Part shown: positions 12,124-56,362 of the stretch, piece by piece
Numbering within the stretch: the first letter of the stretch is position 1
How the letters are laid out: each line of letters starts with the position of its first letter
NCBI RefSeq assembly: GCF_018613195.1
Contig: NZ_JAGGQQ010000011.1
Coordinates: 124,001-188,000 of the forward strand
Source of the DNA: Bacillus sp. ISL-45
Lineage (GTDB): Bacteria; Bacillota; Bacilli; Bacillales; Cytobacillaceae
DNA length: 64,000 bases
Direction: 5' to 3'
Notes under the pieces: model-generated
What the model was told of the DNA's origin: nothing
The model's input: only the letters and a program-made list of their open reading frames with translations
Databases searched by the model: none
Translations under genes and position numbers: made by a program

Positions 12124-13103
12124 CTGTTTAAATCACTGTGGCTAATATTGTTTGCGTCTAGCATCCTAGTTTTCGGAGGGTGCAGTCAAGCAGCAAAAGA
12201 CGATACTGACAATGAATCAGATGAAGAGAAGATTAAAATTTTCACGACAATTTTTCCGCTTCAGGATTTTTCAGAAAAAATAGGTGGGGATTTTGTAGAA
12301 GTAGAAAACATCGTACCAGCAGGGTCTGATGCTCATTCCTTTGAACCTACAACTAAAACCATGGTCAAAATTGCTGAAGGGGATGCGTTCATTTATTTAG
12401 GAACGGGAATCGAGGGTTTTACTGATGCCGTCATTAGTGCTGTGAAAAATGAGGATACAGCCATTGTTAAAGCATCCGAAGGCATTCCGCTAATAAGTGC
12501 ATATGAATCTCCTGAAGATGGACATGAAGAAGAAAATGAAGAAGAAAATGAAGGGGAACATACTGGAGAAGAGGGGGATTTTGATCCTCATGTCTGGCTA
12601 GACCCAGGGCGATCCGTGCAGCATGGTGAAAATTAAAGAATGCATTAATCAAAATCAATCCCAGACAGCAAAATTACTTTGAAAAGAATTTTCAAACTCT
12701 GAAAACTAATTTAGAAGCTGTAGATTCCAACTTTGAAAGTATGGTCAACGAGTCACAAAATAAAACTTTCGTCGTTGCCCACTCTGCCTATGGTTATTGG
12801 GAAGATGCATATGGTTTGAAGCAAATAGGAATTAGCGCTCTTTCTCCTAGTGCTGAACCGTCTCAAAAACAGCTCTCAGAAATAGTAAAAACCGCTGCAA
12901 AAGCTGAATTGGATTATATCCTTTTCGAGCAAAATGTCGAGAATCGGGTGGCCGAGGTCATAAAAAAAGAAATCGGTGCAGAAACTTTGATTCTTCACAA
13001 TTTAGAATCATTAACAGAAGAAGATATTAAAAACAACGAAGACTATATTAGCTTGATGAATAAAAATATTGAAACCTTAAAACGAGCGTTAGAGGTTAAT
13101 TAA
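12124..13103 (+). pseudogene. broken ZnuA/AdcA-type zinc-binding lipoprotein
   Basis: Cluster A-1 metal-binding protein of a zinc ABC importer. GGAGGAGGT is followed at the proper distance by CTG (12124), not ATG, then LFKSLWLILFASSILVFGGC, a lipoprotein signal with lipobox. The body has TTIFPLQDFSEKIGGD, a His/Glu-rich acidic loop (GHEEENEEENEGEH) and DPHVWLDP. The frame breaks near 12600-12640 and resumes as KNALIKINPRQQNYFEKNF, then VVAHSAYGYW and FEQNVENRVAEVI, to the stop at 13101. Two lesions: lost start codon and a frameshift. No znuB or znuC is next to it. Confidence 0.88.
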
Positions 13104-22170: not shown

Positions 22171-23112
22171 TTACTCAACTACGATAATTCCGACCATTCC
22201 GTTCTCTCTATGCCCTGGCAGGGAACAATAAAATTCATATGTACCAGTTTCAGTAGGAGTAAAAGAAATGTTTCCCTCCTCATGTGGCCTAGCATGTAAA
22301 TGTAGTCCATCGCCATGTGAATCATGTGAACCATGGGATGAGATGTTTTCCTGGTCGGTGTTAGGCAATGTCGGTATTTTTTCAATCACGATATCATGTT
22401 CAATGGAGTCATGATTAGTAAAGGTAAGTAAGACTTTTTTGTTTTTTGACAAATTGATTTTACTTGGAGAATAGGAAAAATTTGAGGGGTTAACTTGAAT
22501 AGTTATTCGGTTTAATTGCTCCTCCTTTTCATCAGTAGGAATTTGGGAATGATGCTCATGTATTGGTGATTCTTTTGAAATAACCGACTCTTTATTTAAT
22601 TGATTACCAAAATAAAAGTATCCTACTAAAACAATGAATGTAAAGATAGGCTTTAAAAGCCAACTGGTAAAAACCCCATTATCTTTGGTTGCTTTTTGTT
22701 GAGAAAGAATCAAATACAGGAATAAGGTAGATACTGTAATAGTCAAAAATATATTTAGAAGAGAAACCGCTTGAAGTCTTGAAATCATTTCACCTAGCAT
22801 TGCACCCATCATTCCGCCCATCATTCCAGCCATTGAGCCCTCAATAACCGAGAGTATCCCAAAAGCAAATCCTGCAGAAACACCTACCGAAATTCCGATC
22901 AATACGGAAATAAGAGAAGAAAGGAATAAATCTCCTTGATATATAAACCCGAAAAGAATCCCAGAGGTTACACCAATATTCATTGATATAGCCATAGATA
23001 TAACCATGGGTGTCATACTTTTCATCTTTGTTCTATATTGATATGAAAGTATGATGGAAATCAGCGTCACAAGTAATAGAGTCCCTAAAACAAAATAGTG
23101 AAATTCGTTCAT
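22171..23112 (-). CDS. multi-helix membrane protein fused to a C-terminal cupredoxin
   Basis: 313 residues. The first 180 or so hold about six membrane helices with a Gly/Met run (SMAGMMGGMMGAMLGEM). After a His-containing linker (HEHHSQ) a cupredoxin follows from about 205, with type-1 copper ligands His in SIEHDIV, Cys and His in YCSLPGH, and a downstream Met in ENGMVG. An inserted SHGSHDSHGDGLHLHA loop adds histidines. The membrane part resembles small Gly/Met-rich copper-region membrane proteins without a known name. Ribosome site GGAGG precedes ATG. It probably holds copper at the outer membrane face. A dead relative is at 15898. Confidence 0.82.
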   Translation of the reverse strand: MNEFHYFVLGTLLLVTLISIILSYQYRTKMKSMTPMVISMAISMNIGVTSGILFGFIYQGDLFLSSLISVLIGISVGVSAGFAFGILSVIEGSMAGMMGGMMGAMLGEMISRLQAVSLLNIFLTITVSTLFLYLILSQQKATKDNGVFTSWLLKPIFTFIVLVGYFYFGNQLNKESVISKESPIHEHHSQIPTDEKEEQLNRITIQVNPSNFSYSPSKINLSKNKKVLLTFTNHDSIEHDIVIEKIPTLPNTDQENISSHGSHDSHGDGLHLHARPHEEGNISFTPTETGTYEFYCSLPGHRENGMVGIIVVE

Positions 23113-23272
23113 TCATCTTCGACCTCCTTTAATTGGTACATCATATGTCACTCCAAGACAAGCCATTCTTAAAAAAAAGAATTCTATTCAAGAATAATTA
23201 TTAAAATATTCTAAATATTTAGTATTTACAAAATATTAGTATGGTAGTAAGATTATTTTTAATTACTCCTGA

Positions 23273-23296
23273 ATATACCGTAGCGGGGTAAAGTAC
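23273..23296 (+). promoter_or_regulatory. CsoR-like operator before the first import locus
   Basis: ATATACCGTAGCGGGGTAAA keeps the TACC-N5-GGGGTA core seen before csoR, copA and the second copA. It lies 19 bases before the start of the PIG-L-like gene. One arm is imperfect, so affinity may differ. Confidence 0.65.
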
Positions 23297-23314
23297 TTAT
23301 GTGGAGGGAAAAGA

Positions 23315-24067
23315 ATGGCAAAAGGACAGAAAGTTTTATTTCTTGGGGTTTATGGTATGGAAGTTGTGGAGTGCGGAGGTGCACTTGCTAAGAACGTTCT
23401 AAATGGTGGGGAATCATTTGCATCTATCATGCTGTGCCGAGAAACTAGTCAACCACAGGTTAGGAATGCAGCAGAAATACTTGGAGTAAAGGATATTACA
23501 TTCCTGAATTTCCAGTATGGCACCGTTGATTTAAGCGTTGAATCAAAGAAAAAAATTATAAAAATTATTAGAGAGGTTAAACCTGACATCATTATTACCC
23601 AAGATCCCGAACATTCCTTTCACGATTTGGACCCCGACCGTCGTCCGGCAATGACTTTGCTTCTCGAGTCCATCGCCCTTTCTAGCAGAGATTTTGCTTT
23701 AGATGAACTTCCAGGATTAGAACCTCATCCGATTCCGACTATTTACTACATGACACCGCACCATCCTAATACTGTCGTTGACATTACAGAAGTATGGGAG
23801 AAAAAAGAACGTGCAATGGATATGCTTGAAAGTCAATTGGAATTCAGTGGCATGCATTTTGATGAAATGCTTGATCAGAAAGCAGCTGAAATTCTGTATC
23901 CAGGATTCTCAAAATTAACCAACTTTCAGGAAAAGGGAAGAGCTATACATCAAGTTCTAGATAAGGCTGTTCATGTGTATCATGGCCTTGCCACCCATGG
24001 TCATTTCGCTCTTGCGGAAGCTTATCGTAGAGAAGGGAACTTCCATTTACAGGAATTAATAGTATAA
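23315..24067 (+). CDS. PIG-L/LmbE-like protein lacking canonical zinc ligands
   Basis: 250 residues of PIG-L fold (family of BshB and MshB deacetylases): strand-loop start VLFLGVYGMEVVECGGALAK, Rossmann-like middle REVKPDIIITQDPEH, and FHDLDPDRRPAMTLL. In active family members the first motif is AHPDDE and the later one is HPDH; here they read GVYGMEVVE and LDPDR, so the usual His-Asp-His zinc set is missing. It may use another site (C-terminal HGLATHGHF) or have become a binding protein. It is the first gene of an import operon under a CsoR-like operator. GGAGGG precedes ATG. Confidence 0.72.
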   Translation: MAKGQKVLFLGVYGMEVVECGGALAKNVLNGGESFASIMLCRETSQPQVRNAAEILGVKDITFLNFQYGTVDLSVESKKKIIKIIREVKPDIIITQDPEHSFHDLDPDRRPAMTLLLESIALSSRDFALDELPGLEPHPIPTIYYMTPHHPNTVVDITEVWEKKERAMDMLESQLEFSGMHFDEMLDQKAAEILYPGFSKLTNFQEKGRAIHQVLDKAVHVYHGLATHGHFALAEAYRREGNFHLQELIV

Positions 24068-24090
24068 CAATTTCATAAGGGGGCCGGAAA

Positions 24091-25890
24091 ATGAGAAAAT
24101 TAATATCACTAATAATAATTGCTCTTTTTGTTTTTTCTTCAGCAGGAAACAGTTCAGCTAAAGCAGAAGTAGAATCACTAAAAATCGGGATTCTTAGTGA
24201 TGAAAGCACATTAAACCCTTATACTTATCAAACCGGATATCCAGGTCTTGACTTGGTAAGCCTGTTGTATGACACTCTGTTACAACTAGATAAGGATAAT
24301 AAACCAGTCCCTTGGCTAGTTAAAGAGTATAAGGTAAGCGAAAACGGATTGGAGTATAGTTTTAAGCTAAACGAAAATATAAAATGGCATGATGGACAAA
24401 TGCTTACGTCTGATGATGTTAAGTTTACTGTAGATTATTTTATTAAATATCCTAAATCAAGATTTACCAACCCTCTTAAAAACGTTGCCTCATTAACTGT
24501 TGAAAATGAAACAGACTTTACAATGGTTCTTACAAAACCCGATCCAAACTTTATGATTCAGCCTCTTGCGGATGTACCAATATTACCAGAGCATATTTGG
24601 TCAAAAATCTCAGATCCTGACAGTGAAACCAATGCAATAGGCAGCGGCCCATACATTTTAAGTGAACATAAGGCTGATCAATATTATAAAATGACCGCCA
24701 ACAAGGACTATTTTAAAGAAGCTCCTCCTATTCAAGAAATCATATTTCCAATCATCAAAGATACTACAGCACTTTACAATGCATTGAAATCTGGGGAAAT
24801 TGATGCGATTTCATCAAATATTTCTCCGGAGCTTGTTAACCAATTCGAGTCTAACCCTTCATTAAAGATTTCACGTGGAGCAGGATTCAGCACCACATTA
24901 TTCCAGCTGAATTCTGAAAAATATCCTATGACAGAAAAGCCTTTCAGACAGGCAATTGATCTTGCAATAGATAAAAAAAGTTTGGTTGATATCGTGCTTT
25001 TAGGATTTGCAGAAGTCGGCAGCCCGGGTTTTATTCATCCGTCATCACCTTCATACAATGGTGAAGTAAAAACTTCTTACGATCCCGAAAAAGCAAAGAA
25101 AATCCTTGATGATGCTGGTTTCAAGGATACAAATGGGGACGGTTTCAGGGAAGACCAAAAAGGAAAAGAAATAAATTTCACAACACTAGTCCACTCTAAC
25201 AATCCAATTAGAATCCGGGTTGCAGAACTGATTTCTGAAGCTATAAATGAGATAGGCATCAAAAATTCTGTAAAAGCCATGGAAGATACTACAATCATTA
25301 GTTTAATGTGGCCTGATTACGATGTTAGTAAGGGAAGAAACTTTGATATGGGAGTATTCGGCTGGTCAAACACGATGCAGCTTTTCCCTGATCGTATAGT
25401 CGAGCTGTTTTATTCAGATCCTGCGATTGGTTCTGTAAATATCGGCGGTTATAAAAATAAAGAATTTGATGCTTTGTCGGACCAACTAAGAGCAACATTT
25501 GACGAGACGGAACGACAAAAGCTTATTAATGACCTGCAGTTGATGGTTGCAGATGAAGCACCTATTATAACTCTCTATTATCAGGAAATTGTCAATGCAT
25601 ATAACCCTGAAAAATATGACGGTTATGTTTTCCAAACAGGAAAAGGGATAATCAATAAATTGTCTTTTGTTTCAGGTGAAAGAACAGAAAATGCTGCTGG
25701 GAATAACAGCAATTCCGGTGGGGAAAGTAAATCTTCTGATGAAAAAACGTCTAATGACAGCAATTCAGTAAAAGAAAATAATAATAACGGGATTCTAATT
25801 TTTGGCGTACTTATCGTAATAGCAGCTGTATTTTTCTTCTTATTAAAAAGGAAAAAGAAGAAGAGCGAAAAGGATGATTTTGATTTTTAA
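24091..25890 (+). CDS. peptide/nickel-type solute-binding protein with C-terminal membrane anchor
   Basis: 599-residue family 5 (Opp/Dpp/Nik) binding protein. A Sec signal ends at about 26 (SSAKA) with no lipobox Cys, unlike the lipoprotein usual in Firmicutes. The body has the hallmark segment LVSLLYDTLLQLDKDNKPV and WHDGQMLTSDDVKFT. A Ser/Asn-rich spacer (about 532-565) leads to one membrane helix (about 567-585) and a Lys-rich cytosolic tail, so the protein is held by its C-terminus. This layout is more usual in archaea. A terminator follows, before the permease genes, and would boost this gene relative to them. Confidence 0.88.
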   Translation: MRKLISLIIIALFVFSSAGNSSAKAEVESLKIGILSDESTLNPYTYQTGYPGLDLVSLLYDTLLQLDKDNKPVPWLVKEYKVSENGLEYSFKLNENIKWHDGQMLTSDDVKFTVDYFIKYPKSRFTNPLKNVASLTVENETDFTMVLTKPDPNFMIQPLADVPILPEHIWSKISDPDSETNAIGSGPYILSEHKADQYYKMTANKDYFKEAPPIQEIIFPIIKDTTALYNALKSGEIDAISSNISPELVNQFESNPSLKISRGAGFSTTLFQLNSEKYPMTEKPFRQAIDLAIDKKSLVDIVLLGFAEVGSPGFIHPSSPSYNGEVKTSYDPEKAKKILDDAGFKDTNGDGFREDQKGKEINFTTLVHSNNPIRIRVAELISEAINEIGIKNSVKAMEDTTIISLMWPDYDVSKGRNFDMGVFGWSNTMQLFPDRIVELFYSDPAIGSVNIGGYKNKEFDALSDQLRATFDETERQKLINDLQLMVADEAPIITLYYQEIVNAYNPEKYDGYVFQTGKGIINKLSFVSGERTENAAGNNSNSGGESKSSDEKTSNDSNSVKENNNNGILIFGVLIVIAAVFFFLLKRKKKKSEKDDFDF

Positions 25891-25905
25891 GGAAAAAGGA
25901 TCTGT

Positions 25906-25932
25906 CCCGTAAAATTTTTACGGGATTTTTTC
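25906..25932 (+). terminator. terminator/attenuator between binding protein and permeases
   Basis: CCCGTAAA and TTTACGGG form the stem (25906-25924), followed by ATTTTTTCC. It lies inside the operon and is likely partly read through. Confidence 0.8.
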
Positions 25933-25957
25933 CTAAACTAGCAGGAGGTGCAGAATA

Positions 25958-26935
25958 ATGGGGAAATTTATGGCAGGCAAGCTTTTGCAATACACAATTG
26001 TTATCTTCCTAATGCTAACATTGAACTTTCTTTTGCCTAGGCTTATGCCAGGCAATCCCCTCGTATTTTTGGCAGGTGAGGATGTTGGATTAATGTCCAG
26101 CGCTGAGAAAGAAGCAATCTTGGAAAAGCATGGACTTAATGATTCCATATTTGAACAATACGTTACTTATATTAAAAATATCCTTACAGGGGAATTCGGT
26201 TTCTCCTATCAGCAAAAGAGACCGATTTCAGAGCTTATTATGGAGCGCTTACCTTGGACAATGCTTCTTACAGGGCTCGGTCTTGTCCTCTCAACCATTC
26301 TAGGAGTAATGTTTGGAGCCATTTCAGCCTGGCGCAGAGGAACTAAAACTGATGCGAATTTATTGACAGTTTTTATGTTTCTTAGTGCAATGCCTTCCTT
26401 CTGGGTCGGTATGATTTTAGTTTCTATTTTTTCAGCTCAATTAGGTTGGCTCCCTGTTTTCGGAGCTGAAAGTGCCTGGTCGAATTATTCAGGTATGGAT
26501 AGATTCATTGATATTAGTAAACATCTTATTCTACCATTAACAACCCTTATATTAATCTCAGTAACAAGCACCTTCATGATTATGAGATATTCAATGCTAA
26601 ATGTTCTTGGTGAAGATTATATTATGATGGCCAAAGCAAAGGGCGTAAAAGAAAAAGTTATTAAGTATAAGCATGCCATGAGAAATGCTCTACTTCCCGT
26701 GGCTACTGTATTTATGCTTAGCTTAGGATTTACCTTGGGCGGGGCTACTGTAATAGAAACGGTCTTTGCATACCCGGGTGTAGGACGATTAATGTTTGAA
26801 TCAGTCCTAAGCAGAGATTACCCACTGATTCAGGCGACTTTCCTGATTATTACCTTCAGTGTTGTCATTGCCAATTTCTTGGCGGATTTACTATATCCTT
26901 TACTTGATCCAAAGGTGGGAAGCCGAAATGGGTAA
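25958..26935 (+). CDS. ABC importer permease, DppB type
   Basis: 325 residues, six membrane helices, BPD_transp_1 domain with the EAA loop around EDYIMMAKAKGVKEKVIKYKH. The N-terminal extracytoplasmic segment (GLNDSIFEQYVTYIKNIL) is typical of DppB/NikB. GCAGGAGG precedes ATG. Its last codons overlap the start of the next permease. Confidence 0.92.
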   Translation: MGKFMAGKLLQYTIVIFLMLTLNFLLPRLMPGNPLVFLAGEDVGLMSSAEKEAILEKHGLNDSIFEQYVTYIKNILTGEFGFSYQQKRPISELIMERLPWTMLLTGLGLVLSTILGVMFGAISAWRRGTKTDANLLTVFMFLSAMPSFWVGMILVSIFSAQLGWLPVFGAESAWSNYSGMDRFIDISKHLILPLTTLILISVTSTFMIMRYSMLNVLGEDYIMMAKAKGVKEKVIKYKHAMRNALLPVATVFMLSLGFTLGGATVIETVFAYPGVGRLMFESVLSRDYPLIQATFLIITFSVVIANFLADLLYPLLDPKVGSRNG

Positions 26936-27785
26936 TAAAAAATGGCTAAAGTATTGGCAAGTCCTTACCTCCAATAATATCGGTATAATTGGTTTAGGTC
27001 TTCTGATTATTTTTTTGGCGATAGCAGTTTTCGCCCCTTTACTTGCCCCATTTGATCCGACTGACCGAGTGGGAACGCCGTTTACAAAACCCAACAGTCA
27101 ATTTCTTCTGGGTACCAACGATGTAGGACAGGATATTTTAAGTGAACTGCTGTATGGGACCCGAATATCTTTATTAATTGGTGTCCTAGCTGCCTTTATT
27201 TCTATTCTTCTTGGATGCCTTATCGGAGTAATATCAGGGTATTACGGCGGAAAAGTAGATGCTCTTTTAATGAGATTAGTTGACCTAGTACTTGTTATAC
27301 CATTTTTGCCTCTTATGATATTATTGGCCGCCTTTATTGGTCCGAGTTTTTGGAATATCATTTTGGTAATTAGTTTAATTTCCTGGGCGAGTCCGGCAAG
27401 GGTTATAAGATCACAGGTATTAACGCTAAAAACAAAAGGGTACGTCGAAGCCGCTAAATCAATTGGTACCAATATTAAGGTCATATTAGGCCGGCATATT
27501 TTGCCGGGTGTTATCCCGATTGCACTTTCCCAATTTGTATTAGCAGCTAGTCATTCTATATTAATTGAAGCCTCTTTAAGCTTTTTGGGTCTAGGAGACC
27601 CTTTTACTAAGAGTTGGGGAACGATTTTATATTATGCCCAGGCAAGGGGAGCATTTTTAACGGATGCATGGGTCTGGTGGATACTTCCTCCTGGCTTACT
27701 CATCACCACACTGGTAATAGGATTTGCTTTTACTGGCTATTCATTGGAAGAAGTTATGAATCCGCGACTGAGAAGGGGGCGTTAA
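26928..27785 (+). CDS. ABC importer permease, DppC type
   Basis: 285 residues from ATG 26928, which overlaps the end of the DppB gene by 8 bases and has AAGGTGGGAAG upstream; the longer frame from 26859 is unlikely. It shows the DppC N-terminal helix, then GTNDVGQDILSELLYGTRIS, and the EAA loop TKGYVEAAKSIGTNIKVILGRH. Pairs with the preceding permease to form the channel. Confidence 0.92.
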   Translation: MGNKKWLKYWQVLTSNNIGIIGLGLLIIFLAIAVFAPLLAPFDPTDRVGTPFTKPNSQFLLGTNDVGQDILSELLYGTRISLLIGVLAAFISILLGCLIGVISGYYGGKVDALLMRLVDLVLVIPFLPLMILLAAFIGPSFWNIILVISLISWASPARVIRSQVLTLKTKGYVEAAKSIGTNIKVILGRHILPGVIPIALSQFVLAASHSILIEASLSFLGLGDPFTKSWGTILYYAQARGAFLTDAWVWWILPPGLLITTLVIGFAFTGYSLEEVMNPRLRRGR

Positions 27786-27788
27786 CAA

Positions 27789-28757
27789 ATGTCTGCTGTA
27801 TTAACTGTAGAAAACCTCTCCACTTTCTTTAAAACCGAAAAGGGAATTGCCCGTGCTGTAGAAAACGTTTCATTCTCTGTTGAAGAGGGAGAAATGCTTG
27901 GACTGATTGGAGAGTCGGGATGCGGGAAAACGACCGTTGCCCAATCGATTCTAAGATTAATAGAGTTTCCCGGAAAAGTAGTTGCTGGAAGTGTTCATTT
28001 AAATGGTAGGGATTTGCTTAAAGCCTCCGATTCTGAACTAGGTTCTTTAAGATGGAAGGATCTTTCTGTCATACCTCAAAGTGCGATGAATGCACTAAAT
28101 CCCGTTTATACAATAGGCGATCAAATTATGGAGGCCATTTTGCTCCATGAAAAAGTAAGCAAAAGAGAAGCACTGGCACGGACGAAGACCCTACTTGAGC
28201 TTGTAGGAATAGATGGTGACCGATGGAAAAGCTACCCGCACGAATTCAGCGGAGGGATGAAGCAGCGCGTTGCCATTGCCATGTCACTTGCTTGTTCTCC
28301 AAAACTGGTAATTTCCGACGAATCAACTACAGGACTAGATGTATTAACCCAGGCACAGGTGATAGCATTAATTAAAAATCTTCAGAGAAAGATGGATTTA
28401 TCAGTAATCCTAATTTCACACGATTTGCCGATGGTCACTGCTATTTGCGACAAAATAGCAATCATGTATGCAGGGAAAATTGTTGAGCTTGCCTCAACAG
28501 AGGATATATTGAATGATACAAGACATCCTTATTCAAAGGCATTATTACAAGCGACTCCTGACCTGTCCGATCCTGATCGGGAAGTGATTTCGATACCAGG
28601 CAGTGTCCCTAATCTAGTAAACATTCCACAATGTTGCAGGTTTCATACGCGATGTGCGTTTGCCTTTGACCGCTGCAGAAAAGAAACACCTGAGTTCAGG
28701 GAAGTAAAGACCGGCCACTTTTCCGCATGCTTTCTTGAGGAGGAGGAAAATGGATAA
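27789..28757 (+). CDS. ABC importer ATPase, DppD type
   Basis: 322 residues. Walker A GESGCGKTT, signature FSGGMKQRV, Walker B LVISDESTTGLD (Asp-Glu intact) and H-loop ISHDLP. The C-terminal oligopeptide/nickel extension carries the Cys cluster CCRFHTRCAFAFDRC, a pattern reported to hold an Fe-S cluster in some OppD proteins. First ATPase of the pair. Confidence 0.93.
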   Translation: MSAVLTVENLSTFFKTEKGIARAVENVSFSVEEGEMLGLIGESGCGKTTVAQSILRLIEFPGKVVAGSVHLNGRDLLKASDSELGSLRWKDLSVIPQSAMNALNPVYTIGDQIMEAILLHEKVSKREALARTKTLLELVGIDGDRWKSYPHEFSGGMKQRVAIAMSLACSPKLVISDESTTGLDVLTQAQVIALIKNLQRKMDLSVILISHDLPMVTAICDKIAIMYAGKIVELASTEDILNDTRHPYSKALLQATPDLSDPDREVISIPGSVPNLVNIPQCCRFHTRCAFAFDRCRKETPEFREVKTGHFSACFLEEEENG

Positions 28758-29754
28758 TTCAATTTTACTGAAAGTAAGAGGTTTGAAGAAAACTTTTGTA
28801 AAAAAAACTGGATCGATTTTAAACCGGAAACTGCAAAATGTTTACGCCGTCCATAATGTTAGCTTTGAGATTAAAAAAGGGGAAATTCTAGGGATCATCG
28901 GGGAAAGCGGCTGTGGAAAAACCACAACAGCGCGAATGGTGATGCGCCTGATGAAGGAAACCAGCGGGGAAATTCTTTTTGAAGGAAGAAATTTATGCAA
29001 ATTAACAGATTCAGAGACAAACAGGTTGAGAAGTAAAATGCAAATGATCTTTCAGGATCCATATGATACTCTCAATCCTGGGATGACAATAATGGACATT
29101 TTAATGGAACCAATCAATGCCCACGAAAAACACCTCCCATATGATGAGAAAGTTCGAAGGGTGAAAGAGGCGATTGAATCAATTGAGCTGAGGCCCGCTG
29201 AAGACTATATGGAGAGGTTTCCACACCAACTTAGTGGCGGACAGAGGCAAAGGATTGCTATAGCAAGAGCTGTGATTCTGGAACCACTATTTATTGCAGC
29301 TGATGAACCGACTTCTATGCTTGATGTTTCTGTCCGAGCAGGTATTTTAAACCTCCTTCTCGAACTTAAGAAGAAAATGGGCCTAACCATGATGCTGATT
29401 ACACATGACCTATCGACAGCAAGTTATATGTGTGACCGAATTGCTGTCATGTACCAGGGTAAAATTATCGAGGTCGGGCCCACCAAGAAAATAATCCAAT
29501 CGCCTTCACATCCTTACACAAAGGCACTAGTTTCGGTAGTAAAAGATCTCAATTACTTTATCCAAAATCGAGAAAAGTTAATTCTAGATGGTGAAGTAGA
29601 TGCAACCGAAGAGACAGCAGGATGCCCGTTTGTAAAAAGATGTCCATATCAGGAGGATATTTGTAACAGTGAAATGCCGAAACAGGAATCTCTCGGCGCG
29701 GGTCATGCAGTATCTTGTCACTGCCACAGTAATCTACTTGAAAAAACTTCTTAG
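28750..29754 (+). CDS. ABC importer ATPase, DppF type
   Basis: 334 residues from ATG 28750, preceded by GAGGAGGAGG and overlapping the DppD stop by 8 bases. Walker A GESGCGKTT, signature LSGGQRQRI, Walker B LFIAADEPTSMLD and H-loop ITHDLS. The C-terminal Cys set reads CPFVKRCPYQEDIC and SCHCH. Completes a canonical five-gene importer. Confidence 0.93.
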   Translation: MDNSILLKVRGLKKTFVKKTGSILNRKLQNVYAVHNVSFEIKKGEILGIIGESGCGKTTTARMVMRLMKETSGEILFEGRNLCKLTDSETNRLRSKMQMIFQDPYDTLNPGMTIMDILMEPINAHEKHLPYDEKVRRVKEAIESIELRPAEDYMERFPHQLSGGQRQRIAIARAVILEPLFIAADEPTSMLDVSVRAGILNLLLELKKKMGLTMMLITHDLSTASYMCDRIAVMYQGKIIEVGPTKKIIQSPSHPYTKALVSVVKDLNYFIQNREKLILDGEVDATEETAGCPFVKRCPYQEDICNSEMPKQESLGAGHAVSCHCHSNLLEKTS

Positions 29755-29771
29755 GAAAGGGGGTTTTGAAA

Positions 29772-30404
29772 TTGAACAACGAAAAGAAAATAAAAGTCGC
29801 TGTTAATGGCGGCATTGATTTCGGATCCAAACTGACTGCTAACCAGCTTCGTATACTTGCAAAATATATGGAAGACGACCAGGAGCTTGAGCTTACAACC
29901 TTCCAGCAGCTTTATATTGACATTCTTGAAAGTAAAAAGGATGAAATTATTACGGATTTTGAGTCGGTCGGTTTACACTGCTACCCAGTCGGCAATTTTG
30001 TAAAGAGCCTTAGAACCTGCAATTTTTGTAAAGGTGCAGAGGAAGAGGGAATGCCTGTCGCAATCGAACTTAATAAGAGAATTGCCGGGAAATCTGTTCC
30101 GTTCACCCTAAAACCAGCTTACACCGGCTGTCCTGTTGGCTGTGGAGAGCCTTTGGTTAATGATATTGGAGTTATGAAACGGAATGGGAATCAATATAAT
30201 CTTTATATTGGCGGGAAAACAAAAGGAGAGGATGCCGAGGCAGGAAGCTTATTTAAGGAAAATCTAAATCCTGATGAACTTTATACTACAATCGAAGAAA
30301 TTATTAGGGTATATGGGGAAAAAGGGAAGAAACGAGAGCCTTTCCATAAATTTTTAAAGAGATTCGGAAAAGAAGAACTCATTGAAAATATAAGTCAGGT
30401 ATAA
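29772..30404 (+). CDS. small nitrite/sulfite reductase-like iron-sulfur protein
   Basis: 210 residues. TTG at 29772 is preferred because the GGGGG ribosome site is 8 bases away; TTG 29766 is too close. The N-terminal part resembles the ferredoxin-like half domain of siroheme reductases (LTANQLRILAKYMEDDQELE, TFQQLYIDI), and the cysteines needed for a siroheme/[4Fe-4S] site follow: RTCNFCKG and TGCPVGCGEP. Full sirohaem reductases are over 500 residues, so this has only one half and could be an electron carrier, assembly factor or sensor. It sits in the importer operon ahead of a CsoR gene. Confidence 0.72.
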   Translation: MNNEKKIKVAVNGGIDFGSKLTANQLRILAKYMEDDQELELTTFQQLYIDILESKKDEIITDFESVGLHCYPVGNFVKSLRTCNFCKGAEEEGMPVAIELNKRIAGKSVPFTLKPAYTGCPVGCGEPLVNDIGVMKRNGNQYNLYIGGKTKGEDAEAGSLFKENLNPDELYTTIEEIIRVYGEKGKKREPFHKFLKRFGKEELIENISQV

Positions 30405-30416
30405 GGGGGAATGGAC

Positions 30417-30755
30417 ATGGGTGTAGAGGCGGCTAATGAACAAGTATTACCACCAACTGGTTGCTCTACAAATCATCGAAAGAGCCATCATTCAGAAAAA
30501 ATAAAAAAGAACCTTGATTCAAGGCTAAATCGGATTGAAGGACAAATCCGTGGAGTTAAAAGATTAATTGAAAATGATACCTACTGTGACGATGTGATAA
30601 CTCAATTATCCGCCATCCAATCTGCTTTAAACAGTGTTGCAAGTCTTCTTCTTGAAGGACATTTAAAAAGCTGCGTCATTGAAAGGATAAATGAAGGAGA
30701 CACGGAAGTCATTGATGAGGTCATAGTTACCTTCCAGAGGTTACTGAAAAAGTAA
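30417..30755 (+). CDS. second CsoR-family copper-type repressor
   Basis: 112 residues from ATG 30417 (GGGGG 7 bases upstream; ATG 30411 is too close). Cu(I) ligands C57, H82 and C86 are present (TYCDD, EGHLKSC). It shares almost the entire core with the CsoR at 16272, including the tail motif RKSHHS, so it is a recent paralogue. Its place inside an import operon that starts with a CsoR-like operator suggests it controls this locus and the one at 32276. An extra Cys lies in the N-terminal tail (PTGCST). Confidence 0.88.
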   Translation: MGVEAANEQVLPPTGCSTNHRKSHHSEKIKKNLDSRLNRIEGQIRGVKRLIENDTYCDDVITQLSAIQSALNSVASLLLEGHLKSCVIERINEGDTEVIDEVIVTFQRLLKK

Positions 30756-30784
30756 TAGAGAAAGAAAACCGGGAGGGATTTTCG

Positions 30785-32149
30785 GTGGCTCAACCAGAGA
30801 CCGCGGGTATACAAAGTACTAAACAAAAGATTAGTATCATCTTAGCTTTAGCTATTCCAGCTATGGTTGAGAATACCTTGCAAATGGTGGTCGGTTTTGT
30901 GGATACCCTGTTTGTTGCCAGACTCGGTTTAAACGAAGTGACAGCGGTTGGGATAGCGAATGCGGTTTTAGCCGTTTATATTGCAATTTTTATGGCAATA
31001 GGGGTGGGAACTTCTTCGCTCATTGCCAGGAGCATAGGATCAGGCGACATCGAAAAAGCAAAATCGATTGCCAGGCAATCCACTTTTATTTCTATTTTGG
31101 CGGGAATGATCTTTGGTATCATTTCCGTCTTTTTTAGTGAACCGTTGCTTAAAATGATGGGAGCAGAATCTAATGTTTTAAGAGATGGGGCCATATATTT
31201 ACAGATTGTTGGAATTCCGTCCGTCTTTATTTCATTGATGTTCAATTTTGGTAGCATATTAAGGGCTGCTGGGGATACAAAAACACCTATGAAAGTAAGC
31301 TGGTGGATCAATTTAATTCATATTGGTCTAGATTATGTCCTGATTTTTGGCTTATTTAAGTTGGATGGATTTGGTGTAGCTGGAGCCGCGTGGGCCACTG
31401 TCATTGTAAGGCTTTTGGGGTCAGCTGCGTTGTATCATCATATAAAAAAATCCCCGGTTTCTTTTTCTTTCTCTGGTGAATCTTCCAAAGGAGATTCATT
31501 TGCTATCTTAACATTATCTGCCCCTGCAGCAATTGAGAGATTAATTATGCGTCTTGGCCAGGTGGTTTATTTTGGCCTGATCGTGAAAATAGGGGCAGAA
31601 ACGTATGCTGCCCACACAATTGCAGGGAATATTGAAACATTTTCATATATGCCGGGTTACGGTCTTGCGATAGCAGCCACTACCCTTGTTGGCCAAAGGA
31701 TTGGTGCTAGACAATATAGGGACGCATATGAATTTGGTTTTTTAACTACGGGATTAGCAATTGGATTTATGTCATTAGTTGGCTTGGTGTTGTTCTTTTT
31801 ATCTCCATGGTTTGCTTCCTGGTTTACTACAGACCTACATGCTAGAGGCATGGTTGTAACGGCGCTGCAAATTGATGCTTTTGCACAGCCTGCACTGGCT
31901 GTGGGTTTAGTTTTAGCAGGTGCACTTCAGGGTGCCGGAGACACAAAAAGTCCGATGTACAGCACCGCACTTGGTATGTGGGTGATTAGGATAATCGGAG
32001 TTTATATCCTTGGAATACAATTCGGCATGGGGATAGCGGGTATATGGATTTCAATCGCGATTGATTTATATGCAAGGGGAGCTTTTTTGTTTTATCAATT
32101 TAAAAAACACTTTAAAAAAATAGAAGAAAAAAACATAGGGTTTAACTGA
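30785..32149 (+). CDS. MATE-family efflux transporter
   Basis: 454 residues, twelve predicted membrane helices in two homologous halves of the MATE fold (ALAIPAMVENTLQMVVGFVD in the first half; GYGLAIAATTLVGQRIGARQ in the second). Start GTG with GGGAGG upstream. MATE proteins export drugs or metabolites with Na+ or H+. Being the last gene of a copper-linked import operon, it could export a small ligand or by-product; this is inference only. Confidence 0.9.
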   Translation: MAQPETAGIQSTKQKISIILALAIPAMVENTLQMVVGFVDTLFVARLGLNEVTAVGIANAVLAVYIAIFMAIGVGTSSLIARSIGSGDIEKAKSIARQSTFISILAGMIFGIISVFFSEPLLKMMGAESNVLRDGAIYLQIVGIPSVFISLMFNFGSILRAAGDTKTPMKVSWWINLIHIGLDYVLIFGLFKLDGFGVAGAAWATVIVRLLGSAALYHHIKKSPVSFSFSGESSKGDSFAILTLSAPAAIERLIMRLGQVVYFGLIVKIGAETYAAHTIAGNIETFSYMPGYGLAIAATTLVGQRIGARQYRDAYEFGFLTTGLAIGFMSLVGLVLFFLSPWFASWFTTDLHARGMVVTALQIDAFAQPALAVGLVLAGALQGAGDTKSPMYSTALGMWVIRIIGVYILGIQFGMGIAGIWISIAIDLYARGAFLFYQFKKHFKKIEEKNIGFN

Positions 32150-32275: not shown

Positions 32276-32299
32276 ATATACTATAGAGGGGTAATGTAT
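32276..32299 (+). promoter_or_regulatory. CsoR-like operator before the second import locus
   Basis: ATATACTATAGAGGGGTAAT is nearly the same as the operator before copA at 47679 (ATATACTATACAGGGGTATA). The match over 17 of the first 18 bases is the strongest sequence link between the import loci and the copper regulon. Confidence 0.78.
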
Positions 32300-32392: not shown

Positions 32393-34048
32393 ATGCAAAA
32401 TTTTGGGAAACGCTTATCATTTTTCATCTTACTTTGTGTACTGATATTAGTATTTAGTGCCTGTAATAATAGTCAAGTCAATACTCCTGCTAATAAAGAA
32501 AAGAATGAAGAAAAAACAAGCAGTTCTAATAAAGAGCAAGTTATTACAGTCAATGCATTAAGTGAACCGCCTAGTCTTGAACCAGCACTGATTGATAACC
32601 AGACTGCTGGGGATATTTCAAATCAATTATTCGAGGGTTTGGTCCGATTGGACAAAGACGGAAACATAGTTCCTGGTGTTGCAGAAAAGTGGGACATTTC
32701 TGATGACGGAACTGTTTATACTTTCTATTTTAATAAGAATGCTAAATGGTCAAATGGTGACCCTGTGACTGCTAAGGATTTTGTCTATTCGTGGGAGAAG
32801 GTTTTACGTCCAGAAGTAGCTTCACCTCTTGGCAGTAACTTGTTCTTTATTAAAAATGGAGCAGCATACAATGAAGGATCATTGAAGGATTCATCCCAGC
32901 TAGGGGTAAAGGCTGTTGATGAATATACACTGGAGGTTACTTTAGAAAAACCTACTTCCTTTTTCTTAGGTTTAACTGCTTTCTTTACATTATTGCCTAT
33001 CCATGAAAAAACGGATAAAGCAAATCCAGAGTGGGCTTCTGAAGCTGAAACCTTTGTTTCAAACGGACCTTTTAAAATTGAGAGTTGGAAACACGGCCAA
33101 GAATTAATTATGGTTCCAAATGAAAATTATTGGGGCAAGGATGTAGTTAAGCTTGAAAAGTTAAAGTGGGTAATGGTGAATGAACAAAATACTGAATATG
33201 CTATGTACCAATCGAACGAGCTCGATTTTTCTGCCAATATCCCAAATTCAATAAGAAGTAAATTAATAGCTTCAGGTGAAGCAAAAACAGCGCCAAGCGC
33301 AAGTTTAGCTTATATAAGATTTAATCATGAGGATCGAATTTTTAAAAATGAAAATATCCGTAAAGCATTAGGTCTTGCCCTTGATAGAAAACTTTTGGTA
33401 GAAAAAGTGACACAGGGAGGAGAAGTTCCCGCTCTTGGTTTAATACCATTAGGATTGAGTAGTGGTGCAGGAGAATTCAGGGAATTAGCTGGAGACTCCT
33501 TGTTTAAGGATAATGATTTAGACACATCAAAACAACTTCTGAAAGAAGGACTCGAAGAACTGGGACTTTCTACATTGCCTAAAATTAATCTGCTTTTTTA
33601 TACAGACGATACTTACAATAAACTTTCTCAAGCAATGCAGGAAATGTGGAAGAAAAACTTAGGAATTGATACAGAGCTCCAAACGATGGAACGTAAGGTA
33701 TTTGTTCAAAATGTTCAAGCCGGTGAGTACCAATTAGCTTTGTACAGTACTGGCGCAGACTATGATGATGCAAGCAATTTAATGGGACAATTCATGAGTG
33801 GGGATGTCTATAACTATAGCAACATTTCTATTCCTGATTACGATCAATTAATGGAAAAAGCAGAAGCGGAATTGAATCTGGAGAAGCGAGCGGGGTATTT
33901 GGTCGAAGCTGAAAAGGTTCTAATAGACCAAATGGCAATTTCCCCACTTTATTACCGTACAAAAGTTTACTTGCAAAAGGACAATATCGAAGGAGTCTAT
34001 CAGTATACAATTCAGGCAATTGATTTCCGGGAGGCAAGTGTTAAGTAG
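32393..34048 (+). CDS. OppA-type solute-binding lipoprotein
   Basis: 551-residue family 5 binding protein with a lipoprotein signal (VFSAC, Cys23), Asn/Lys-rich linker and standard body: LSEPPSLEPALIDNQTAG, QLFEGLVRLDKDGNIVPG, KWSNGDPVTAKDFVYSW. Unlike the binding protein at 24091 it is lipid-anchored. It most resembles oligopeptide-binding OppA. GGGGGAAACACA precedes ATG. A terminator follows, as in the first locus. Confidence 0.93.
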   Translation: MQNFGKRLSFFILLCVLILVFSACNNSQVNTPANKEKNEEKTSSSNKEQVITVNALSEPPSLEPALIDNQTAGDISNQLFEGLVRLDKDGNIVPGVAEKWDISDDGTVYTFYFNKNAKWSNGDPVTAKDFVYSWEKVLRPEVASPLGSNLFFIKNGAAYNEGSLKDSSQLGVKAVDEYTLEVTLEKPTSFFLGLTAFFTLLPIHEKTDKANPEWASEAETFVSNGPFKIESWKHGQELIMVPNENYWGKDVVKLEKLKWVMVNEQNTEYAMYQSNELDFSANIPNSIRSKLIASGEAKTAPSASLAYIRFNHEDRIFKNENIRKALGLALDRKLLVEKVTQGGEVPALGLIPLGLSSGAGEFRELAGDSLFKDNDLDTSKQLLKEGLEELGLSTLPKINLLFYTDDTYNKLSQAMQEMWKKNLGIDTELQTMERKVFVQNVQAGEYQLALYSTGADYDDASNLMGQFMSGDVYNYSNISIPDYDQLMEKAEAELNLEKRAGYLVEAEKVLIDQMAISPLYYRTKVYLQKDNIEGVYQYTIQAIDFREASVK

Positions 34049-34080
34049 TAAAAATGGTGGCGCGCTAAGCGGCTAGGATG

Positions 34081-34121
34081 CTGAAAGAGTGTACAATGAG
34101 TACACTTTTTCAGTTGTTTTT
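34081..34121 (+). terminator. terminator/attenuator after the OppA-type gene
   Basis: CTGAAAGAGTGTAC pairs with GTACACTTTTTCAG (one G-T pair) around AATGA, followed by TTGTTTTTG. Same position as the element at 25906 in the first locus. Confidence 0.85.
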
Positions 34122-34147
34122 GCCTAAAATCATAAAGGAGGGGGAAT

Positions 34148-35077
34148 ATGCGGCAATTTTTTACCAGGAGAATTATTAGTGTTATTTTAACTTTATTTGT
34201 CATTATTTCGCTTACCTTTTTATTGATGTACGCAATACCCGGTGATCCTTTTACAAGTGAAAATCGTATTCCAGAGCAGGTAGTTGAAAACTTAAAAGAG
34301 CATTATGGACTTAATGATCCCTTGTTTATACAATATTTTAAATATCTAAAGGGAGCATTATTGATGGACTTTGGTCCTTCAATCAAATGGGATAACCAGA
34401 CAGTTAACCAATTAATTGCTAACGGATTTCCTGTTTCGGCCATGATAGGTATTCAAGCCATTCTCATAGCTGCATTCTTTGGAATCGTTTTAGGTATTCT
34501 CGCAGCTTTTCGTCACAATAGTGCAATTGACTATTTTTCTATGATTATTGCCATACTTGGCCTTTCCGTCCCCAGCTTCATTTTTGCTACAATATTAATC
34601 AATTTTTTTGCTATAAAGCTGCAATGGTTCCCTGTCGCAACATGGGGTACATGGAAACACTCCGTTTTGCCAAGCATTGCTCTTGCTGTTACACCGATGG
34701 CCTATATAGCACGACTTACTAGATCAAGTATTTTAGAAGTACTTTCGATGGATTATATTCAAACTGCCATGGCTAAAGGAGTGACTGGTTTCAGATTTAT
34801 TTTTAAGCATGTACTTCGTAATGCAATGATTCCAGTTGTAACAATACTTGGTCCCATTACAGCTACAGTATTGACTGGAAGCTTTGTAATAGAACAAATC
34901 TTCGGTATTCCAGGCTTGGGGAAATATTTTGTTGAGGCCATCAATGATAGAGATTATCCATTAATTTTGGGAACGACTGTTTTTTATAGTGCTATATTAA
35001 TATTCTTTATTATATTAGTCGACCTTGCATACGTTCTGATCGATCCTAGAATAAAACTTATCAAAAGGAGGGGATAG
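34148..35077 (+). CDS. ABC importer permease, OppB/DppB type
   Basis: 309 residues with six membrane helices and the family start IISVILTLFVIISLTFLLMY. EAA loop around MDYIQTAMAKGVTGFRFIFK, then GSFVIEQIFGIPGLGKYFVE. Ribosome site GGAGGGGG before ATG. Adjacent to the second permease without a gap. Confidence 0.94.
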   Translation: MRQFFTRRIISVILTLFVIISLTFLLMYAIPGDPFTSENRIPEQVVENLKEHYGLNDPLFIQYFKYLKGALLMDFGPSIKWDNQTVNQLIANGFPVSAMIGIQAILIAAFFGIVLGILAAFRHNSAIDYFSMIIAILGLSVPSFIFATILINFFAIKLQWFPVATWGTWKHSVLPSIALAVTPMAYIARLTRSSILEVLSMDYIQTAMAKGVTGFRFIFKHVLRNAMIPVVTILGPITATVLTGSFVIEQIFGIPGLGKYFVEAINDRDYPLILGTTVFYSAILIFFIILVDLAYVLIDPRIKLIKRRG

Positions 35078-35998
35078 ATGATGCAGCAAGTGCCAGACGA
35101 TCTTTTTGTTCTAAAGAAAAAAAACAAAGAAGAAAAGGCTGATAGTAAACCTAGTGAATCGTTTTGGGTAGATGCGATAAGCATACTGAGACAAAACAAG
35201 CTTGCTATGACTGGACTTGCCATTAATATTGGTTTGATCGTAATGGCAATTATAGGTCCAATGCTGGTTCCCTATTCGTATTCAGATCAAAATCTATTAA
35301 ATTCCAATCTCCCTCCATCATTTGACTATTGGTTTGGAACTGATGATTTAGGTAGAGATTTATTTTCCAGGACCTGGGTAGGAGCGAGAATTTCCCTTTT
35401 TATTGGTATAACAGCAGTCGCTTTGGATTTGATAATCGGAATTATATGGGGAGGAATCGCAGCATATAAAGGCGGAAAAACTGATGAAGTGATGATGAGA
35501 ATCGTAGATATACTTTATGGACTGCCTCATTTGCTGGTGACAATTTTATTGATGGTCGTATTAAAGCCTGGATTACTCACTATTATAATTGCAATGGCTG
35601 CAACGGGATGGATTGGAATGGCGCGTCTAGTTCGCGGTGAAATACTGAGATTGAAAGAATCTGAATTTGTAATGGCATCCCAAGTATTAGGAGGGAGTTT
35701 TTTTCGGGTCTTATTTAAGCACCTTATTCCAAATGCTATGGGCCCTATAATAGTGAGCATGACATTATCTGTTCCTGGTGCAATTTTTGCGGAGGCCACT
35801 TTAAGCTTTCTTGGACTAGGAGTTCCTGTACCGCTTGCGAGCTGGGGAACGATGACATCAGAAGGTCTCGTCACCTTATTAACAGGTGAAATATGGAGGC
35901 TATTTTTTCCGGCATTATTTATTTCATTAACGATGTTTTCATTTAATGTATTGGGTGATGGTCTGAGGGATGCGCTGGATCCGAAATTCATAAAATAA
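35078..35998 (+). CDS. ABC importer permease, OppC/DppC type
   Basis: 306 residues. Conserved DppC elements are FGTDDLGRDLFSRTWVGARI and SEFVMASQVLGGSFFRVLFK, ending in SWGTMTSEG and LGDGLRDALDPK. Starts immediately after the upstream stop, with AAAGGAGGGGAT inside the previous gene. Two consecutive ATG codons leave the start uncertain by one residue. Confidence 0.94.
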   Translation: MMQQVPDDLFVLKKKNKEEKADSKPSESFWVDAISILRQNKLAMTGLAINIGLIVMAIIGPMLVPYSYSDQNLLNSNLPPSFDYWFGTDDLGRDLFSRTWVGARISLFIGITAVALDLIIGIIWGGIAAYKGGKTDEVMMRIVDILYGLPHLLVTILLMVVLKPGLLTIIIAMAATGWIGMARLVRGEILRLKESEFVMASQVLGGSFFRVLFKHLIPNAMGPIIVSMTLSVPGAIFAEATLSFLGLGVPVPLASWGTMTSEGLVTLLTGEIWRLFFPALFISLTMFSFNVLGDGLRDALDPKFIK

Positions 35999-36027
35999 CT
36001 CTTTTACTCAATGAAAGGGTGATAAAT

Positions 36028-37032
36028 GTGAAAAGATTACTAGAAGTTAATGATCTGCACGTTCATTTTCATTCAAAAAAACAGAATATCTACGCTGTTC
36101 GTGGGGTTTCCTTTCATGTGAACAAGGGGGAAGTCCTCGCAATTGTCGGAGAATCCGGGTCTGGGAAATCAGTTACTGCTAAAAGTATTATGAAACTGCT
36201 TCCTGAGAAAACATGTTCCATCCCCGAGGGGTCCATTTTATTTAACGGGGAAGAAATCACAACAATGAAGAAAAAACAGCTTTCCAAAATCCGTGGGGCA
36301 AAGATTGGTATGGTATTCCAGGATCCCATGACTTCCTTAAACCCGACAATGAAGGTGGGTGACCAAATTGCGGAGGGGCTAATCGTTCATAAAGGCTATA
36401 GTAAAAAGTTAGCTCATGAAAAGGCAGTTGAAATCATTAGTCTAGTTGGAATCCCGGATCCTATATATTGTTGTACAACCTATCCTCATCAGCTAAGTGG
36501 AGGAATGAGGCAGCGAGTCGCCATTGCAATGGCTTTGATTTGTGAACCTGATCTGTTAATTGCTGACGAGCCAACAACAGCTCTTGACGTAACCATCCAA
36601 GCACAGATTTTGGATTTATTAAAAGACCTGCAGGAGAAAATGAGTATGGCGATCATTCTCATTACGCATGATTTAGGAGTGGTTGCAAGGTTTTCAGATA
36701 GAGTGAATATCATGTATGCCGGTAAAATAGTCGAATGTGGAACGAAAAACGAAATTTTTTATAATCCAAAACACCCCTATACGATTGGATTGCTAGAATC
36801 AGTTCCTCATCTTGATTTAGAAAAAAACCAACAATTAACCGTGATTGAAGGGACACCACCAGACTTGCATGACCCTCCAAAAGGTTGCGCTTTTACTTCG
36901 CGATGTCCGTTTGCAATGGAGGTATGTGATTTGTATCAACCAAATAAAACCATCCTATCAAGTACACATCATTCTGTATGTTGGTTGATGGACCAAAGAG
37001 CGTCAAAAATAGATAAAATTCAATTACAGTGA
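36028..37032 (+). CDS. ABC importer ATPase, OppD/DppD type
   Basis: 334 residues from GTG 36028 (GAAAGGG 8 bases upstream; the earlier GTG at 36019 overlaps the ribosome site). Walker A GESGSGKS, signature LSGGMRQRV, Walker B LLIADEPTTALD, H-loop THDLG and the Cys-containing C-terminus (GCAFTSRCPFAMEVC). No OppF-type ATPase follows, so this locus has only one ATPase. It may pair with the DppF product of the first locus or act as a homodimer. Confidence 0.93.
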   Translation: MKRLLEVNDLHVHFHSKKQNIYAVRGVSFHVNKGEVLAIVGESGSGKSVTAKSIMKLLPEKTCSIPEGSILFNGEEITTMKKKQLSKIRGAKIGMVFQDPMTSLNPTMKVGDQIAEGLIVHKGYSKKLAHEKAVEIISLVGIPDPIYCCTTYPHQLSGGMRQRVAIAMALICEPDLLIADEPTTALDVTIQAQILDLLKDLQEKMSMAIILITHDLGVVARFSDRVNIMYAGKIVECGTKNEIFYNPKHPYTIGLLESVPHLDLEKNQQLTVIEGTPPDLHDPPKGCAFTSRCPFAMEVCDLYQPNKTILSSTHHSVCWLMDQRASKIDKIQLQ

Positions 37033-55248: not shown

Positions 55249-55575
55249 TTGCTCACAACTTTAATCATCAGTCTCCTTTTAGTTACCTTGGTTTTCAACC
55301 GTTATGTTCCAGTCAGGAATCTCCCGGAGGTAAAGGACTATGAAAAGGATGCGGTTTTTGTCGATCTTAGAGATTATCAGGATTCTGCGAAAAATCCAGT
55401 AAATGGCGCTATTAATATTCCTTGTGGATATTTGAAAAGGTATATAAAAGAAATTCCAGACAGGCATATCGTCATCATTGCCTCAAATGAATTGGAAAAG
55501 AATTTCGGAGCAAGATTGCTAAAGAAATATGGTTACAATGTTAAAGGATATACAATTACTGGACCATCACAATAG
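55249..55575 (+). CDS. membrane-anchored rhodanese-like protein without the active cysteine
   Basis: 108 residues from TTG 55249 (GAGAGGTGA upstream), with one N-terminal helix (about 2-18) and a rhodanese fold (AVFVDLRDYQDSAKNPVNGA, NIPCGYLKRYIKEI). Where active enzymes have a Cys loop (CxSGxR), this has IIASNELEKNFG, so it should lack sulfurtransferase activity. It could bind a partner or act as a regulator. It is the first gene before cstR. A Cys elsewhere (NIPCGY) might substitute. Confidence 0.78.
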   Translation: MLTTLIISLLLVTLVFNRYVPVRNLPEVKDYEKDAVFVDLRDYQDSAKNPVNGAINIPCGYLKRYIKEIPDRHIVIIASNELEKNFGARLLKKYGYNVKGYTITGPSQ

Positions 55576-55586
55576 GAGGTGGCAAG

Positions 55587-55850: not shown

Positions 55851-55863
55851 TGAATTTCTGTTC

Positions 55864-55906
55864 TTGACAAGTTGATTTTCGTCACTTAAAATACCCATAT
55901 GGGTAT
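55864..55906 (+). promoter_or_regulatory. sigma-A promoter overlapped by a CstR operator
   Basis: TTGACA (55864-55869), 17-base spacer, TAAAAT (55887-55892), then the perfect palindrome ATACCCATATGGGTAT (55891-55906) overlapping the -10 end. A bound repressor would block initiation of the downstream rhodanese genes. Confidence 0.85.
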
Positions 55907-56343: not shown

Positions 56344-56362
56344 TAATAAGGAGGAAATTGAA

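Follow-up and report, generated by a model that had tools for sequence, protein, structure and literature searches.

The stretch of DNA analysed here (the window, 64,000 nucleotides) belongs to the 4.6-Mb genome of Bacillus sp. ISL-45 and contains, on the plus strand at 23315-32149, an operon of nine genes encoding, in this order, a PIG-L-fold protein, a solute-binding protein, two permeases, two ATPases, a half-size reductase, a CsoR regulator and a MATE exporter. An earlier note on this DNA, made from the sequence alone, had named all of these genes in the right order and on one strand, but had counted only eight in its tight array.

The first gene (23315-24067) encodes a protein with the PIG-L fold, from a subfamily that lacks the zinc motif (see below), and the second (24091-25890) a family-5 solute-binding protein that has no cysteine and carries a membrane anchor at its C-terminus. 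A terminator-like hairpin (25904-25926, plus strand) separates the binding-protein gene from the genes of the DppB/OppB-type (25958-26935) and the DppC/OppC-type permease (26928-27785; the open reading frame begins at 26859, the likely start is 26928). These are followed by genes for a DppD/OppD-type ATPase (27789-28757), a DppF/OppF-type ATPase (28750-29754; open reading frame from 28735, likely start 28750), a sulfite/nitrite-reductase-like protein of half size (29766-30404; 212 residues, CxxC...CxxxC), a CsoR paralogue with the Tyr-Cys, His, Cys residues (30411-30755) and the MATE exporter (30785-32149). A ribosome-binding-like sequence was seen by eye upstream of each of the nine genes. 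The CsoR-type operator TACCGTAGCGGGGTA (23276-23290, plus strand) lies directly downstream of a promoter-like TTTACA-17-TAAGAT sequence (23225-23253, plus strand), which comes from a consensus scan only; promoter-like sites of the region (25) were not in excess of those in shuffled sequences (27.5). A cupredoxin-domain gene (22171-23112, minus strand) is divergent from the operon.

The PIG-L subfamily and its binding protein

A genome scan yielded 53 relatives of the PIG-L protein, one of which (L070, 27% identity) was dropped, leaving 52 loci, 24 in Bacilli and 28 in other groups; near-identical loci (e.g. L018-L020, or L051 and L023) are not independent. Residue conservation was determined for the 56 full-length sequences among 59 PIG-L sequences, near-copies included. 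Glu16, Val18, Glu19, Gly21, Gly22, Thr95-Gln96-Asp97, His100, Asp104-Leu-Asp-Pro, Arg109, Arg110, Lys164, His228 and Glu235, among others, are invariant (56/56), and the subfamily can be described by the motifs [YF]GxExVExGG and TQDxxHxxxDLDP[DG]RR. Motifs of the AHADD and DRHPDH type hold zinc ligands, and both are present in BshB1 of the same genome, which served as alignment reference and scores 313.9 bits in NCBIfam (cut-off 182.5). The deacetylase zinc motifs (His-x-Asp-Asp and His-Pro-Asp-His) are replaced in the subfamily by [YF]-G/S-x-E and DLDP[DG]RR, and this replacement, together with the import context, sets it apart from the PIG-L/LmbE deacetylases BshB, diacetylchitobiose deacetylase and MshB. 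The predicted structure of the operon's protein retains the PIG-L fold (mean predicted local distance difference test score 91.8). Because the zinc motif is lost, ordinary deacetylation by this protein appears unlikely; with the motifs replaced and the fold kept, it may lack hydrolytic activity altogether or be an enzyme whose site is a different one.

A gene for a family-5 binding protein was found within 7 kb of the PIG-L gene, on the same strand, at all 24 Bacilli loci and at 22 of the 28 others (46/52). Nineteen of these 46 binding proteins were aligned, and they have in common the signature WP-x-[FY]-[DE]-V-x-x-GR, followed by [GS]W[SG]. When 204 genomes of the window's order were searched with a binding-protein profile, scores above 840 bits were obtained in six, all of them PIG-L-positive, and the next match was at 413 bits. 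The seventh PIG-L genome of the order (G273) gave no match although its locus holds the binding-protein gene, and was therefore probably outside the 204-genome sample. The PIG-L-like protein is paired, in a conserved manner, with family-5 binding proteins of one class. Recurrence of the gene neighbourhood outside close relatives, on which the earlier note had staked its proposal, was found in many genera.

In a structure search with the binding protein NikZ was the top match, tied in Z score with CtaP and YliB and followed by AppA; MbnE was not among the 50 structural matches listed. The best sequence matches in the PDB were AppA and then 3m8u, a glutathione-binding protein. CtaP takes cysteine and YliB glutathione. 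The NCBIfam scores of the binding protein were 175.1 bits for NikA (cut-off 393) and 132.2 bits for CntA (cut-off 800), and the permeases and ATPases of the operon were also under their importer cut-offs. The structural and PDB matches would agree with an import operon that, under copper excess, supplies the cell with Cu(I)-buffering compounds of the cysteine, glutathione or peptide type, the imported thiol being handled by a BshB-like PIG-L protein; the best NCBIfam score of the PIG-L protein, 49.2 bits with the bacillithiol deacetylases, far under their cut-off of 182.5, points the same way. The family-wide loss of the zinc motif argues against such a function. So does the lack of an Asp three residues after a Trp (W+3), which in DppA/OppA binds the amino ends of peptides: this Asp is missing in all 19 aligned PIG-L-associated binding proteins and present in the window's second binding protein (see below). 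As far as can be judged from structural similarity, the ranking of the binding protein does not decide between the readings considered here.

CsoR-type operators in Bacilli and the half-size reductase

Operator sites were initially described by the loose pattern TACC-N5-GGGGTA with up to two mismatches, which was dropped because its count in the window (23 sites, 24.8 expected) was no better than chance. The strict pattern TAC-N6-GGGGTA has three sites in the window as against 0.17 expected, a number reached in none of 100 shuffles. These sites lie upstream of the PIG-L operon, of a second importer (32279) and of copA2 (47682), and they make up half of the six found in the whole genome; the reversed pattern, used as a control, occurs 28 times there, which shows that the strict pattern itself is uncommon. 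The earlier note had seen one and the same core before csoR and both copA genes. This is correct for copA2, whereas the sites upstream of csoR1 (16225) and copA1 (16886) are degenerate relatives of the strict operator.

This G-tract pseudopalindrome has 39 strict sites across 23 Bacilli loci (1.85 in mononucleotide shuffles), and at 18 of the 23 a strict operator precedes the PIG-L gene; at L028 the operator was assigned by hand, the automatic start of the open reading frame lying too far upstream. The other strict sites of the Bacilli loci are mostly upstream of CsoR, CopA, half-reductase, MATE, cupredoxin or second-importer genes, and a few have no such gene nearby. The counts in the window and at the Bacilli loci bear out the proposed link between the importer and a CsoR-type operator. 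A relative of the cupredoxin gene was detected at 21 of the 24 Bacilli loci, and a MATE gene at least 45% identical to that of the operon at 15.

The strict operator at 32279-32293 (plus strand), overlooked in the earlier note, lies upstream of an Opp-type importer (32393-37032) consisting of a binding protein (32393), two permeases (34148 and 35078) and an ATPase (36019). This second importer is also linked at L018-L020 and, without a strict site, at L034. Its sharing of the CsoR-type operator would be in line with import of thiols or peptides.

The CsoR encoded at 30411 has Cys59-His84-Cys88 as its X-Y-Z ligands and, in the sequence DTYC, a Tyr (the second-shell A position) directly ahead of the first Cys, so that the statement that its Cu(I) ligands are intact proved correct. 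Two acidic residues, Asp102 and Glu103, lie near the place where the second-shell Glu (B position) may be expected. The Cys-His-Cys set is kept in 30 of 31 CsoR-family sequences, L043 having Cys-His-His, and a CsoR with the copper-type Tyr was found at 18 of the 24 Bacilli loci. According to PMC4235346, the Tyr ahead of the first Cys is a copper-sensor feature of CsoR, and the Cys/His pattern of the family is not predictive of the metal. InrS-like nickel sensing, considered because of a His 32 residues ahead of the first Cys, was set aside on these two grounds, the pattern not predicting the metal and the Tyr pointing to copper. A second, Tyr-less CsoR-like gene was noticed beside MATE at L025, L026, L028, L033 and L041, and the CsoR-like protein of L042 is also without the Tyr.

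The half-reductase matches the NIR_SIR 4Fe-4S domain (PF01077, 58.3 bits, cut-off 27). Proteins of this type are about 210 residues long and have four invariant cysteines, C-x2-C...C-x3-C, in 13 of 13 sequences. The canonical spacing of siroheme sulfite and nitrite reductases is C-x5-C, and the half-reductase has neither their C-x5-C...C-x3-C motif nor their full two-half length. Stand-alone half-reductases were found in 60 of 299 genomes of the window's order, including all seven with PIG-L (hypergeometric probability 1e-5, uncorrected for kinship). These 60 genomes, two of them with an internal stop, were counted by hand on the basis of a best match of at least 279 bits; an automatic tally of 129 genomes includes full-length CysI and NirB. 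Among ten genomes from other PIG-L lineages two, those of L042 and L040, had a half-reductase, in both cases by strong match. The Clostridiaceae match, at L040 (9031-9399) and L075, carries in-frame stops.

Twenty half-reductase loci, each from a different one of the 60 genomes, were read; a gene for CsoR or for a P1B ATPase lies within about 4 kb at 11 of them, and the other nine lack both. Thirteen plasmid records match the half-reductase, and five were read: in three of them it adjoins a P-type ATPase gene and either copZ or a gene for another copper-binding protein, in a fourth csoR and copZ lie no more than 5 kb away, and the fifth has none of these by name. A strict operator of its own precedes the half-reductase at L033, L038, L116 and L123. 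Because it occurs in many genomes without PIG-L, often near copper genes, the half-reductase is a separate and wider copper-linked gene of Bacillales, though not exclusively copper-linked.

A half-reductase paralogue, 71% identical, is encoded outside the window (L113, G000:C11:196533-197144). It adjoins a gene for a YncE-like beta-propeller and a gene 25% identical to the window's multicopper oxidase; no CsoR and no CopA were seen in the stretch read, and the surroundings are the same at L114, L115 and L125.

Neighbourhoods in other lineages

At the five Ferrimonas-type loci (four Ferrimonas records and one titled Marinobacter nauticus) the PIG-L gene lies directly downstream of genes for a periplasmic binding protein, a FecCD permease, an ATPase and a TonB receptor, assigned partly by Pfam and otherwise by eye. 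A divergent NikR gene, scoring above the cut-off of one NikR model and below that of another, is present at all five. The transporter genes of one such locus (L045) scored high, though far under the cut-offs, with NCBIfam models of a putative F420-0 ATP-binding cassette (ABC) transporter. A TonB/FecCD system beside NikR is a further point against import of thiols or peptides, which, on the evidence as a whole, we consider unlikely.

The presence of NikR beside PIG-L at all five loci and the top structural rank of NikZ would agree with another explanation, namely that iron, nickel, zinc or cobalt is displaced by excess copper and that the operon compensates by taking up a chelate of the metal so displaced; copper stress disturbs iron-sulfur clusters in Bacillus. 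Replacement alone does not explain the metal exporters that adjoin PIG-L in Chloroflexi and at L042, L043 and L057, and we regard this explanation, too, as rather improbable.

Four Chloroflexi loci (L058, L060, L062 and L063) contain genes for a P1B ATPase, PIG-L, a flavin reductase, the binding protein and permeases, with an ArsR-type gene ahead in three. A CDF exporter gene is located downstream at L058 and L060 (identified by Pfam) and L062 (by eye), and upstream at L067. L057 combines FecCD, a cadmium-family ATPase, PIG-L and importer genes, and L043 (Trueperaceae) a CsoR-family gene, an MFS exporter and a CPH-type ATPase best scored as copper-translocating. On a Meiothermus plasmid ArsR/SmtB and MFS genes adjoin the importer, and a P-type ATPase and copper genes lie 5-13 kb further along. 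In total, a P1B ATPase was found at seven of the 28 non-Bacilli loci; L069, with an ATPase only 24% similar and without metal motif, was not counted. In NCBIfam the ATPases found at L042 and L058 exceed the copper as well as the cadmium subfamily cut-off, with the higher score for cadmium, so that both metals are candidates at L042 and in Chloroflexi; that of L057 passes the cadmium cut-off only. These observations show that the PIG-L/importer pair is often, but not always, beside metal exporters or sensors. The copper link of the importer genes proposed earlier applies to Bacilli; in other phyla the pair is not tied to copper genes specifically.

Control by metal riboswitches was rejected for the Clostridia-type loci, as none of the eight has such a riboswitch beside PIG-L. 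The aptamers detected lie away from PIG-L (M-box and fluoride at L040, cobalamin at L057), and a Clostridiales-1 RNA was found at L055 (9522-9688), upstream of PIG-L on the opposite strand. A FeoB-like piece is present at L054.

PIG-L was found in 7 of 299 genomes of the window's order, 4 of 398 genomes of its phylum and 10 of 111 genomes of the phylum of Meiothermus. Three further samples searched at E 1e-30 returned only the starting genome (1/274 for the Ferrimonas class, 1/251 for the phylum of L060, 1/150 for the family of L054), indicating that the family is rare. PIG-L and importer genes also occur on plasmids. The closest loci are of Bacillus type, in Bacillus sp. ISL-41 and ISL-55 and in a record titled Chryseobacterium sp. 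ISL-80. The latter (L018) and a record titled Pseudomonas sp. ISL-84 (L030) have Bacillaceae-like loci near those of Bacillus and Cytobacillus and are probably mislabelled. In a PIG-L tree, constructed without nine sequences (L024, L029, L039, L052, L053, L065, L066, L069 and L070) and with a very long outgroup branch, one group unites Chloroflexi and Meiothermus, and another the Ferrimonas type, Bacillota and Trueperaceae. This tree, being at odds with the phyla, suggests horizontal transfer of the PIG-L genes.

The rare and patchy distribution, the occurrence on plasmids and the 12 non-Bacilli loci at which no metal exporter or sensor was recognised could mean that PIG-L and importer genes ride in metal-resistance islands as passengers, with no role in metal handling. 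The strict operator upstream of PIG-L at 18 of 23 Bacilli loci and the varied metal genes that adjoin PIG-L across several phyla make this very unlikely.

Elsewhere in the window, two open reading frames (12148-13103) resemble two pieces of a single binding protein of the zinc/manganese type (by eye, ZnuA-like), and the small proteins encoded at 55249-56656 include at least two that by eye resemble single-domain rhodaneses. Rfam gave no match in the window.

Proposed uptake and processing of metal complexes

Metal chelates are the substrates common to family-5 and TonB/FecCD importers. Because one PIG-L protein serves both of these unrelated importer types, and because metal exporters or sensors often adjoin, the best explanation is a module for uptake and processing of organic metal complexes of the metallophore type, copper-controlled in Bacilli, which we put forward tentatively, giving it somewhat less than an even chance. 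The substrate of the importer would be a metal bound to an organic ligand, in Bacilli probably copper, and the zinc-less PIG-L protein would meet this complex in the cytosol and help in metal release or ligand processing. In Bacilli, Cu(I) reaching the cytosol would lift CsoR, so that importer, CopZ/CopA and MATE rise together. As the module stands behind a CsoR-type operator, it would be inducible by the copper that it brings in; in such substrate-type induction CopA would remove the copper and MATE perhaps the ligand. The half-reductase might, as a weak proposal, serve as a helper in redox steps. Outside Bacilli, this core would be wired differently. Of the three roles suggested in the earlier note, handling of a metallophore fits the comparative evidence best; uptake of buffering thiols or peptides is less probable (see above); recovery of iron-sulfur precursors is without direct support.

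Several observations weigh against uptake of metal complexes. No genes for metallophore biosynthesis were noticed in the loci read, none having been searched for, and it is costly for a cell to import a copper complex at a time of high cytosolic copper. The second importer, which also follows a CsoR-type operator, resembles peptide importers, and cysteine-, glutathione- and peptide-binding proteins are among the structural neighbours of the binding protein at similar Z. The strict site upstream of PIG-L is absent at five of the 23 Bacilli loci (L021, L034, L036, L039 and L041); sites with one or two mismatches are present at all of these except L034, at L021 and L039 at chance level. No metal exporter, CsoR or NikR was found, by BLAST with the window's genes or by eye where read, at 12 of the 28 non-Bacilli loci (L040, L044, L048-L050, L052-L056, L059 and L069), several of which are short contigs, and the PIG-L gene of L059 has no adjoining importer.

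Among known systems, methanobactin transport (MbnE, MbnM, MbnT) resembles the module in having an OppA/AppA-related binding protein and a MATE protein in a copper context, and the TonB receptor has its parallel in the Gram-negative PIG-L version. It differs in that no precursor or biosynthesis genes were noticed here (MbnA and MbnB/MbnC were not searched for) and in that the operon has a presumed CsoR-type, i.e. copper-excess, control, a PIG-L protein and a dedicated ABC permease. NikABCDE, NikZ and CntABCDF share the family-5 binding protein, two permeases and two ATPases, with NikZ as the top structural match, whereas the operon reaches no NCBIfam importer equivalog cut-off, is apparently under CsoR-type control and has PIG-L and half-reductase partners. 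The Bacillus CsoR-copZ-copA operon is similar in regulator type and operator, and copZ and copA are adjacent at several PIG-L loci, but here importer, PIG-L, half-reductase and MATE genes also lie behind the operator. In contrast to ethylenediaminetetraacetate uptake (EppA), no monooxygenase gene was noticed, and EppA ranks structurally below NikZ.

In the open PMC papers searched, neither the PIG-L/importer pair nor a half-reductase linked to copper was found to be described. The single protein families are known; the combination would be metal-chelate import with an unrecognised partner protein. It is possible, though doubtful when all parts are taken together, that the zinc-less PIG-L protein represents a new class of cytosolic partner of metal-chelate importers, which releases metal from a metallophore or processes it, serves two unrelated importer families in several phyla and with different metals, and in Bacilli belongs to a module of the copper-excess response.

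To our knowledge, it is unknown how metal complexes of metallophores other than methanobactin are opened after uptake. For methanobactin, the opening of the copper complex is likewise described as unknown in PMC7558416. A conserved protein that tracks importers across phyla would, if the proposal is true, provide a handle on this step. Importers behind the copper-excess operator of Bacilli are not predicted by the usual view of CsoR as a controller of export, and the CxxC half-reductase, too, deserves to be studied.

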